DNA from: Methanoplanus sp. FWC-SCC4 | GTDB lineage: Archaea; Halobacteriota; Methanomicrobia; Methanomicrobiales; Methanomicrobiaceae | NCBI RefSeq assembly: GCF_032878975.1 | Contig: NZ_CP043875.1 | Location: 372,001-436,000, forward strand | DNA: 64,000 nucleotides | Reading direction: 5' to 3' | Shown: positions 10,209-13,371 of the stretch, in pieces | Layout: the number at the start of each line of letters is the position of its first letter | Position numbering within the stretch: the first letter of the stretch is position 1 | Notes under the pieces: model-generated | What the model saw: only the letters and a program-made list of their open reading frames with translations | The model's database searches: none | Told to the model about the DNA's origin: nothing | Made by a program: the position numbers and the translations under genes

Positions 10209-11222
10209 TCACCCCTGCTTGCTCATTGTGCTGACATAGCTGATTGACGGTACACGGTCAACATGGCCTCTGATACGAATTGCAGGTCTGATTCTTACAA
10301 GACGCTTGACAGGTCCGGGTACTGATCCCTTGATAGCGATGTACTTTCCTCTTACGAGACCGTAGTGGAGGAATCCGCCGTCAGGATTAATTGACTCCGG
10401 TTCTGTTCCCAATTTAAGGATACGCTTGTTGAATTCTGTTCTCTGCTGGTATCCCATCTGACCCATCTGTGGAACCTGCCATCTTACGTGGTGAGGTGTC
10501 CATGGTCCAAGGTTTCCAATGTGGCGTTTCTTTCCACCGACAGAGTGTTTTCCCTTACGTGTCTGAATACCCCAGCGTTTGACAGGGCCGTTTGTGCCTT
10601 TACCTGTTGTTACTGCTGTAACGTCTATGTACTGGCCTTCTTCTGCAACTGCATCCAGTTCAATTTCTGAACCAAAGAGTCCTGTTGCAAATTCGAGGCG
10701 TGCTTCCATGCTTCCGCCGGCAACACGGACTTCCATTAAGTCCGGAACTTTCTTTGGAACACCGGTAAGCGCTGCCGGCTGAGTGTACATTAATGCAAAA
10801 ATGTCAGAGACTCTCTCGTTTGCGATAGCGTCACGGATTTTCTGAGTGTTATCTGCACTGTTGTTGTTCTTTGGAATTGCAATGCGTCCTTTGAGTGCTT
10901 CGTCGACATTTTCTGCCCACACTTCTGAGAATGCATGCTTTCCGTATGTATCCTTAGCGTATGCACGCACTGCAACAACCTTCATGGGTGGAATTTCGAC
11001 AATTGTAACAGGTACTGTGATGTCCTTGCCCTCACTTGGGCTGTTTTTGTGGTCATCAACCATTACAATATGCGTCATACCCACTTTGTATCCGGCAAAT
11101 CCCTGCAGTTTTGGCTCCCCTTCGTACTCAGGCCAGGATTTGTATTTTGGTACCTGGCTCTTTGCACGCTTGCGGGGACTGTATGCAAGAGATCCTCTGC
11201 GTGGTCTGGATATTTCGGCCAT
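10209..11222 (-). CDS. rpl3p: 50S ribosomal protein L3 (uL3), first gene of the operon
   Basis: A 337-residue archaeal uL3, an early assembly protein next to the peptidyl-transferase centre. It starts [20 protein letters not shown] and contains the core [15 protein letters not shown] and [20 protein letters not shown], the tip loop region. It is the promoter-proximal gene of the 11-kb ribosomal cluster. An AT-rich box about 32 bases upstream of the ATG could drive an almost leaderless transcript. Confidence 0.96.
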
Positions 11223-11246
11223 TTTTCAATCAATCCTAAATCTTGA

Positions 11247-11260
11247 TTTAATTATTAAAT
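11247..11260 (-). promoter_or_regulatory. Candidate TATA element for the L3-led ribosomal operon
   Basis: The symmetric run TTTAATTATTAAAT is centred 32 bases upstream of the L3 ATG (11222), the distance expected for an archaeal TATA box with a start site just before the codon. Because it is palindromic it could also fire in the plus direction toward the structured region at 11274. Confidence 0.35.
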
Positions 11261-11264
11261 CGAT

Positions 11265-11760
11265 ACTGTTTTTCCGAGATTTCAGGAAACATGTTCCTGA
11301 AGGGTTAAACAGACGTTCTCGTCTGGCCTAATGAACCTGGATACTCGTGTATTGTTTACTCCGGCAGATTAAGGGTCTGCTGAATAACATGCAGTAATCT
11401 TCTGCCTGCCTTTTTGGAATTAAATAATTCCTTAGCCTTGACCGAATTCTGCCGGCCAATAGCTTTCACGTCTCTCTAACAGATTCTGACCTTTACCTGC
11501 GCTCTTCTGGTCAATGCCAGAAAAAGGGCCGAAAATACATTTTCGTCCACCCCATAATTTGGCGCATACATCAGATCCTACGTCGTCAGCCCGTTACTAC
11601 CCTTCAAAGGGTAATAAACAACTATCTCGGCAATCACCAGAATCCTGAAACGATTTCAGGTTTCCGGGCAACCACTTTATGAAAATTTGTCTTTCAATGA
11701 TGTTTATTCTCTGTCGTTGACAGGTTCATGAACAACATTTCATGCAAATTTCATAACGGT
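11265..11760 (-). ncRNA. Candidate large structured RNA (or very long structured leader) upstream of L3
   Basis: No credible protein is encoded, yet perfect complementary arms are dense. On the minus strand an outer helix pairs CCGAGAT (11624-11630) with ATCTCGG (11274-11280). A second long-range pair, TTGTTTA/TAAACAA, lies inside it. CCGGCAGA/TCTGCCGG (8 bp) is a third. Local hairpins include TACCCT-TTGA-AGGGTA, CGAAAA-TGTA-TTTTCG, TTCTGG-CATTGA-CCAGAA, GGAATT-ATTT-AATTCC, CAGACG-AGAA-CGTCTG, TTCAGGAA-CATGT-TTCCTGAA, CCTGAAA-TCG-TTTCAGG and CTGTC-AAC-GACAG. A TATA-like box at 11783-11791 favours minus-strand transcription. I do not see the conserved cores of RNase P RNA or SRP RNA on either strand. 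Exact ends, strand and function are inferred. It could instead be a non-autonomous mobile-element remnant. Confidence 0.4.
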
Positions 11761-11782
11761 TTCCTAAATGTTCTATTTATTT

Positions 11783-11791
11783 TATTATAAA
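11783..11791 (-). promoter_or_regulatory. Candidate TATA box for the structured RNA
   Basis: On the minus strand the sequence reads TTTATAATA inside a strongly AT-rich stretch. The predicted start site 25 bases downstream (near 11758) lies just ahead of the first hairpins of the structured region. The stretch from 11792 to 11980 shows nothing else that I can interpret. Confidence 0.35.
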
Positions 11792-11981
11792 GATTTGTAT
11801 TTTGGAACTCATGAATAAAAAAGAGAAAATGCCTGATGATGATTTTATAGTATTATTGTAAGTCTGAATATTTCCACATGATCTGAATTAACAATTTATA
11901 ATCTGTACAATTTTTTGATTTTATTTGAATATATGGGCATTATGACTAAAAAATTCTTTGGAAAATAATAATTTCAGATAT

Positions 11982-12386
11982 TTAATTGAAATATATGTCG
12001 CCTTCTTTATTGATGTATACATCAATGTCGTCTTTTATGTATCTTGCCCGGAAGCGTTCCGGATTTGAGTCGCGCATACGGTTAATGAGAGATATTGTGT
12101 CGTATCGTACTTTTATACCCTCAACTTCAGCTTCTTTGAAGATATCCTTGGCTGCCTCAATAAAATCAGAACCTGCGCTTATGGTGCATAAATGGGTGGC
12201 ATCGAGGGTATATAGGAATTCGATTGTTTCTTTTGCTTTTTTGATGTTTTCCATCGCTGCTTTCTCAATCGTGCACACATTTGCTTTGGAAGTTTTTATG
12301 ATGTCTGCAATCTGCTGCTGGGTATAACCATGTTTACGGTACCTGAGCACTTCTTTTTGGCGGTCAGTAAGTAGACTATCTTTCAT
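11982..12386 (-). CDS. tfx: Tfx family DNA-binding regulator
   Basis: A 134-residue protein resembling Tfx, first described as a DNA-binding protein for the molybdenum formylmethanofuran dehydrogenase operon of Methanothermobacter. The N-terminal helix-turn-helix spans about residues 6-45 (LTDRQKEVLRYRKHGYTQQQ, then IADIIKTSKANVCTIE), a sigma-factor-like HTH. The C-terminal 70 residues form the Tfx-specific domain. It is transcribed divergently from mtd across 142 bases that contain two perfect palindromes, which makes mtd a plausible target; that link is inference. Confidence 0.85.
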   Translation of the reverse strand: MKDSLLTDRQKEVLRYRKHGYTQQQIADIIKTSKANVCTIEKAAMENIKKAKETIEFLYTLDATHLCTISAGSDFIEAAKDIFKEAEVEGIKVRYDTISLINRMRDSNPERFRARYIKDDIDVYINKEGDIYFN

Positions 12387-12528: not shown

Positions 12529-13371
12529 ATGGTAGTTAAAGTTGGAATCGCAAAACTCGGCAACATCGCAAGTGGTGTTATGGCTGAATTACTCCTTGAT
12601 GAGCGTGCAGACCGTGAAGACATGGAAACATTCATGGCAACAAGCGGAACAAAACTTCAGGAAAACGACATTGCACGTGTTGTTGACAACATGAAGGCAT
12701 GGGCACCTGACTTTTGTATTGTTGTGTCTCCAAACGGTGTTCTTCCCGGACCAAAGGGAGCACGTGAGGCACTTGCAGCAGCAGGCATTCCATGTATTGT
12801 AATTACAGACGATATCACATCAAAGAAAGATGACTTTGCAGCACTCAAGGAATCAGCATTTGGATACATCATCATGAAGGCAGACTCCATGATTGGTGCA
12901 CGCCGTGAATTCCTTGACCCTAAGGAAATGTCAGACTTTAATGGAAACCTTGTAAAGGTTCTCGCACTCACAGGCGCATTCTCCAAACTCCAGATTGCAC
13001 TTGATGAAGTAATTGACCAGGTAAAAGAAGGAAAGAAGGGTGCAGACCTTGTTCTTCCAAAGATCGTCATGACATCCGACAAAGCAGTTGCAAATGAGTT
13101 CACAAACCCATACGCATATGCAAAAGGACGTGCAGCATACGAGATTGCACAGGCAGTTGCAGGCCAGAATGTCAAGGGTTGTTTCATGACAAAGGGTCAC
13201 GAAAACTACACACCTATCGTTTCATCCGCACACGAGATGATGCGCCAGGCAATGCTCCTCTGTGAAGAAGCACGTGAAATTGAGAAAGCAGGCGACGGTG
13301 TAATCAGAAGGCCACACAAGGGCGACGGAACACGCGTTGAGAAGAAAGAGCTTATCTCAAAGCCCTGGTAA
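12529..13371 (+). CDS. mtd: F420-dependent methylene-H4MPT dehydrogenase
   Basis: A 280-residue Mtd, which reversibly reduces methenyl-H4MPT to methylene-H4MPT with reduced F420 in the CO2-reducing methanogenesis pathway. The start [20 protein letters not shown], the [15 protein letters not shown] and the [20 protein letters not shown] segments are diagnostic. A Shine-Dalgarno GAGAGGT lies 6 bases before the ATG. It is a single-gene unit: an AT-rich spacer with T-runs follows. Confidence 0.97.

Follow-up and report, generated by a model that had tools for sequence, protein, structure and literature searches.

The S10 operon of Escherichia coli is preceded by a 5' leader RNA that is bound by ribosomal protein L4. 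Among archaea, the L4-Archaeoglobi leader (Rfam RF03135) was predicted in 2020, from Archaeoglobi only, and was rated borderline (Eckert and Weinberg, PMC7247131); L4 was named as its ligand as a guess, the reason being that L4 is the leader ligand in bacteria, and an overlap with a methyltransferase gene is not mentioned in the main text of that paper (PMC7247131). The methyltransferase family concerned here, PF02598 (COG2106), comprises SPOUT enzymes with an inserted OB-fold (PMC1829167), is predicted to methylate 23S rRNA (given as U2584 / m3U2619) and sits in ribosomal-protein operons (PMC2584109). Its members include MT1 (structure 1K3R) and, in humans, SPOUT1/CENP-32. The locus described below lies in a 64,000-nucleotide stretch (the window) of the Methanoplanus sp. 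FWC-SCC4 genome, a complete archaeal genome of 2.31 Mb with nearest relatives among the Methanomicrobiaceae, e.g., Methanomicrobium mobile. The reading that we prefer, with a probability of about three in four, is that this locus encodes a leader of the S10 operon with an RF03135-like core, that this core was derived from a PF02598 gene and has outlived the enzyme, and that the RNA acts in cis.

An absence of protein genes from approximately 500 bases upstream of rpl3, claimed in an earlier sequence-only reading, was evident from the lack of any minus-strand open reading frame of at least 50 aa between the start of rpl3 (11222) and a helix-turn-helix gene (11982), presumably of the Tfx type, and from the occurrence of 9–12 stops per frame in the leader. 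The same reading saw no conserved cores of RNase P RNA or SRP RNA, in agreement with which these RNAs (RF00373 and RF01857, respectively) were rejected as identities of the element, both genes being located elsewhere in the genome. The GC content was approximately 0.44 in the leader region as opposed to approximately 0.22–0.26 in the flanking spacer beyond, and folding compared with dinucleotide shuffles gave z -5.2 for the minus strand and z -6.3 for the plus strand. Although the latter value would favor a functional RNA on the plus strand, that reading is extremely improbable since the TATA box, the position before rpl3 and the coding sense of a homologous gene (see below) all belong to the minus strand. 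Moreover, G-U cells (189) exceeded A-C cells (80) when aligned pairs were read on the minus strand, as expected if this strand is the RNA.

Pieces of the leader region were matched by BLASTN in 17 of 60 relatives (own genome counted), and matches within the family were placed between the Tfx-like gene and rpl3. Across the order, a gap of 500–1000 nt with recurring strings was noted upstream of rpl3. Through most of the order, the Tfx-like gene was kept with the leader on one side and, on the other, a divergent gene (12529–13371, plus strand) that probably encodes methylene-H4MPT dehydrogenase. The Tfx-like gene was not found beside the RNA in genus g31 of family f5 (L039, L040, L046, L049 and L074), where the RNA was still before rpl3. 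A weak match to snoU2-30 (26.9 bits, gathering threshold 60), with UGAUGA- and CUGA-like boxes, was seen in the AT-rich spacer (11834–11891, plus strand) and is probably due to chance, the alternative being a C/D-box RNA.

A TATA-like box at the correct distance, as noted in the sequence-only reading, was borne out by the conserved start sequence that follows it (Table 1). Of 64 loci, 45 had a perfect TTTATAT upstream of the leader, mostly 490–660 nt before rpl3. None of the 64 had one in the last 110 nt before rpl3, and the best match there was even poorer than expected from shuffles. This distribution suggests that transcription most likely runs through the RNA into rpl3, which would make the RNA a leader at the 5' end of the S10 operon; the unusually long ribosomal leader toward L3 proposed earlier is thereby supported by promoter position as well as by conservation and covariation. 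A start-site study of Haloferax volcanii counted starts lying over 250 nt away from a gene as separate RNAs (PMC4983044), so a leader as long as this one would not have been linked to the gene it precedes. The size, elaborate fold and own promoter of the element, together with a core-to-rpl3 interval that was highly variable in length among loci, would also suit a stable non-coding RNA that acts in trans, its place before rpl3 being incidental, and that is cut from, or ends before, the operon transcript. We consider this rather unlikely because the RNA keeps its place beside rpl3 throughout the order as well as in other classes (as judged from loci read and from spot comparisons of genome-search matches), because rpl3, with no TATA box before it, would be left without a promoter, and because one arm of a long-range helix lies near the rpl3 start.

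Table 1. Features of the S10-operon leader region (window positions).
Feature	Position	Strand	Basis or remark
rpl3 (uL3)	10209–11222	-	First gene of S10 operon; ATG end 11222; adjoins RNA in all loci
Tfx-like helix-turn-helix gene	11982–12386	-	Upstream of leader
TATA box, TTTATAAT, putative promoter of leader	11784–11791	-	Sequence; approximately 24 nt before conserved GGAAACC start at 11764
Whole predicted leader, approximately 542 nt	11223–11764	-	GGAAACC start to base before rpl3 ATG; start placed from TATA distance and conserved start sequence
5' hairpin P1, arms 11745–11760 and 11671–11689	11671–11760	-	Fold and close-relative alignment; arms co-changing by eye
Hairpin P1b, CCCGGAAACCTGAAA / TTTCAGGATTCTGG	11637–11668	-	Fold and close-relative alignment
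Long-range closing helix, 5' arm CCGAGAT	11624–11630	-	Partner 11274–11280
Long-range closing helix, 3' arm ATCTCGG	11274–11280	-	51 nt before rpl3 ATG
Conserved RNA core (covariance-model match)	11468–11639	-	R1 48.5 bits; R2 81 bits (window in R2 seed)
P2 hairpin, GTTGTTTATTACCC / GGGTAGTAAC	11593–11622	-	Both-side changes in 7/7 pairs
P3 5' arm, GGATCTGAT	11570–11578	-	P3 cells 94.8% paired; corresponds to RF03135 outer helix
P3 3' arm, GGTCAGAATCT, one bulge	11481–11491	-	Order alignment
P4 5' arm, TGCGC	11562–11566	-	Both-side changes in 6/6 pairs
P4 3' arm, GCGCA	11498–11502	-	Covarying arms, order alignment
P5 hairpin, GGGGTGGACGAAAAT / ATTTTCGGCCC	11526–11553	-	Near-invariant GGG/CCC and covarying inner pairs
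P6 hairpin, TTTCTGG / CCAGAAG	11504–11523	-	Both-side changes in 5/5 pairs
Conserved unpaired motif, CTGTTAGAGAGACGTG; consensus CUNUUNGCGAGAC	11467–11482	-	Alignment; codons for (VRI)SSR in intact gene
Genus-level hairpin P8, CCAGACGAGAACGTCTG inside AGGTTCA / TTAACCC	11302–11338	-	Kept in closest relatives only
Shine-Dalgarno-like AGGATTGAT before rpl3	11229–11237	-	Conserved GGATTGATTGAAANATG in relatives

A covariance model of the region upstream of rpl3 in Methanomicrobiales (R1), with a seed of 32 sequences that did not include the window, found the window copy as its single match in the genome (E 7.9e-9). R1 matched 99 of 100 rpl3 loci of the order, and a second model, R2, built from 99 sequences including the window, matched the hundredth. 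The class gave matches in 200 of 232 genomes, including 129 of the 135 good ones, almost always as one copy; one of the two matches in a single genome was at a contig end. A first MAFFT/RNAalifold consensus of 45 sequences yielded only 19 pairs because variable stems were misaligned, and anchors and a covariance model were used instead. In the resulting 99-row alignment, which was fitted to the structure and so favors pairing, 90.9% of cells were paired compared with 30–49% for slid partners. Both-side changes were noted in 22 of 32 base pairs of the core, amounting to 492 such cells as opposed to 145 in shuffles, and a free search for other stems recovered the P2–P6-type helices of the model as best. 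The large structured minus-strand RNA proposed from the window alone is thus confirmed as real and conserved across the order, both by a model built without the window and by compensatory change. A search for kinship of the core to 23S rRNA of the same genome, by BLAST and by covariance model with filters off, gave nothing above chance, and rRNA mimicry is therefore unsupported.

From 5' to 3', the core in the anchored alignment consisted of P2, a long bulged P3 (GGAUCUGA / UCAGGAUC), P4, P5, P6 and the motif CUNUUNGCGAGAC. The letters of the P4 arms differed almost everywhere while complementarity, found here without fitting to the structure, was kept (TGCGC/GCGCA, GACGCT/AGCGTC, GCAGCAGC/GCTGCTGC and AGGACAGT/ATTGTCCT). 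An interpretation of CUGA...UGAUG as a box C/D or kink-turn element was abandoned because these letters form an arm of P3.

Three long-range pairs and a switch between competing pairings of GCAGA had been proposed from the sequence of the window. All of the named complementary pairs exist, but only CCGAGAT/ATCTCGG was supported by its evolution. This helix was kept in close relatives, and in other clades the arms differed yet were complementary (e.g., ATGAGTG/CACTCAT). Furthermore, the summed helix score between the segment before P2 and the region before rpl3 in 98 loci was 1538.5 compared with 1329 ± 21 for shuffled partners, an approximate measure of strength since the sequences are related and were compared with a plain shuffle of letters. 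In contrast, TTGTTTA/TAAACAA and CCGGCAGA/TCTGCCGG were not retained in the nearest relatives, whose local hairpins fill the same sites. The GCAGA switch, which had been built on these pairs, is therefore unsupported and was rejected.

The sequence-only reading had called the RNA undescribed and had suggested an Rfam search, the outcome of which was mixed. Thus, searches of the window copy with E up to 10 gave only chance matches, and the gathering threshold of RF03135 was not reached by this copy or anywhere else in its genome. Relatives, on the other hand, did match RF03135, which was above the Rfam threshold in 102 of 199 Methanomicrobiales genomes and, where compared, in the same place as R1. 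The P3–P6 topology of RF03135 is the same as that of the core: the window copy aligns to P3 (CUGA/UCAG), P4, P5 (GGGU..GCCC) and P6 of that structure, and lies on the same strand upstream of the rpl3-rpl4 operon, the place before rplC/rplD/rplW/rplB being common to both elements. On these grounds the window core is judged homologous to RF03135, and the window copy, being below threshold, appears to be a divergent homologue of that family rather than a member by the rule of Rfam. A phylum search with R2 identified 84 genomes outside the order, each with one match that was nearly always full length. In the 18 of these loci that were fetched, the RNA was before rpl3 on the same strand and most matches overlapped RF03135, both models thus matching the same bases in other classes. 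Differences from RF03135 were also noted. The Methanomicrobiales element carries P2 as an additional hairpin, is closed by a long-range helix and belongs to a non-coding leader of 500–1000 nt, whereas the RF03135-type element of other classes is inside a methyltransferase gene. In comparison with the E. coli S10 leader, likewise a 5' RNA before the S10 operon and a functional parallel if autoregulation is correct, the archaeal leader is longer and is not known to be related in sequence or fold.

The overlap with a protein gene was evident from open reading frames of 266–481 aa that covered the RNA match in other classes, where the RNA also reads as protein. Both of two such proteins tested were PF02598 (Methyltrn_RNA_3), and both RF03135 and PF02598 matched in H. 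volcanii, which served as positive control. The conserved strings of the RNA match codons for YREGVV, VGSD, WVDVG and TVRISSR, and the segment is read as coding for the inserted OB-fold of the enzyme. PF02598 was present in 83 of the 84 genomes outside the order that carried the RNA (compared by hand); in the exception (G239), the RNA was before rpl3 without an open frame (L220, G239:C1:652900-659200), and a congener (G266) had both. Locus L220 thus represents an apparent independent loss of PF02598 outside the order, with a lengthened P5. Haloarchaea-like and Archaeoglobi-like loci carried the RF03135 leader inside an intact PF02598 gene, an overlap that the annotation of the family seems not to reflect. 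Many genomes of families f7, f9, f13, f16, f18 and part of f23 contained PF02598 with no match to the RNA model; the RNA of these genomes may be absent or may have diverged past detection.

Within Methanomicrobiales, PF02598 was found in only 4 of 198 genomes (G006, G018, G033 and G073), in each case at the rpl3 locus and overlapping the RNA. In these four genes the open frame takes in the P2 hairpin (in L089 the alignment gives VVLSHNGMIDVGSD), which makes them look inherited rather than imported. In a tree of L3, the four genomes fell in two families among gene-less lineages, and the distribution of PF02598 entailed at least 5 changes by parsimony, more if losses only, with many forks open. 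The intact methyltransferase of L122 (G033) was in a 483-aa open frame as opposed to the usual 260–300 aa; either the protein is extended at its N terminus or the frame is open by chance. A PF02598 profile search of the window's own genome gave no match, and no intact frame of this gene was seen in the window, where all frames contain stops and the core corresponds to the OB-fold-coding segment; the fossil peptides VGSDVCA and AQVKVRI were in two different frames. Similarly, segment lengths were in frame in 5 of 95 non-coding loci, and 524 stops were counted in 94 non-coding loci compared with 0 in the 4 coding loci. When intact loci were compared with 104 non-coding loci by BLASTN, only about 200 nt (P2–P6 plus the motif) matched, in up to 68 of them, and the rest of the approximately 880-nt gene gave 0 matches except for the promoter and first codons. 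The core is thereby shown to derive from part of the PF02598 gene, which stands before rpl3 in other Halobacteriota. A tblastn match of 73 aa in L219 was rejected as a gene remnant, being a self-match of a chance ORF.

Support for the RNA fold where the gene is intact came from covariation and codon choice. Covariation was strong in 19 sequences, 17 of which had the gene intact, with 89.3% of cells paired compared with 36–54% for slid partners. A further pair count, made on a model-fitted alignment, is biased upward, and shuffling of synonymous codons within each gene was a fairer test. Best helix scores observed and in such shuffles were 296.6 and 210.6 ± 12.8 for P3, 311 and 220 ± 12 for P4, and 385 and 309 ± 14 for P6, respectively, and the observed sums were reached by 0 of 300 shuffles, although these are not formal probabilities since the genomes are related and not independent. 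Codon choice in intact genes thus favors the RNA pairings. Fold energy gave weak support, the mean z of the RNA segment in intact genes being -1.96 as opposed to -1.08 for other parts of those genes. The match of conserved strings to codons is what would be expected if the non-coding loci held pseudogene remains with residual coding similarity and no RNA function, RF03135 being an artefact of protein conservation. This explanation is scarcely credible, however, given the compensatory changes in non-coding loci, the survival of the RNA segment where the remainder of the gene disappeared, the broken frames, the favored pairings in intact genes and the independent retention of the RNA outside the order in G239.

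Location of the RNA inside the PF02598 gene in most lineages, and the predicted methylation of U2584 of 23S rRNA by this family (PMC2584109), raise another explanation, namely that the RNA binds the methyltransferase, as in autoregulation of PF02598, or is its substrate. This is improbable in view of the absence of any PF02598 match from 194 of 198 Methanomicrobiales genomes, the RNA nevertheless persisting in the order with strong covariation; because the RNA outlives the enzyme, the latter is an unlikely ligand. In lineages outside the order that have the gene, the segment is both protein code and RNA fold. The enzyme gene has been lost from most Methanomicrobiales, the source genome included, whereas the RNA segment persists together with the promoter upstream of it. 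Under the preferred reading, i.e., a cis-acting S10-operon leader, the RNA thereby became a non-coding leader, probably retained after decay of the gene because it controls ribosomal-protein production. The core (P2–P6) would be closed by the long-range helix reaching close to the rpl3 start, and cis action would most likely depend on predicted binding of a ribosomal protein of the operon, with L4 (the published guess), L3 or another protein as candidates among which we have no preference. By way of that helix, ligand binding might then alter how the operon is translated, or else elongation.

We consider it likely that an operon-control RNA is embedded in a protein gene across Halobacteriota and that several lineages lost the protein but kept the RNA, an archaeal protein gene having given rise to a functional non-coding RNA element. 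That the RNA is a surviving piece of the methyltransferase gene is a point that the sequence-only reading was unable to see. A borderline prediction from one class thereby becomes a well-supported element in many families of one phylum, one that is easily missed in intergenic screens because RF03135 overlaps a coding gene. Few cis-regulatory RNAs are known in archaea, where the balance of ribosomal-protein synthesis is largely open. Because the enzyme has been lost repeatedly and the RNA kept, RNA function is testable with and without the protein; the proposal, if true, provides a clean natural experiment in which the function of the RNA is uncoupled from coding. The element is also one of the rare instances in which a protein-coding sequence can be followed to its survival as a structured RNA.
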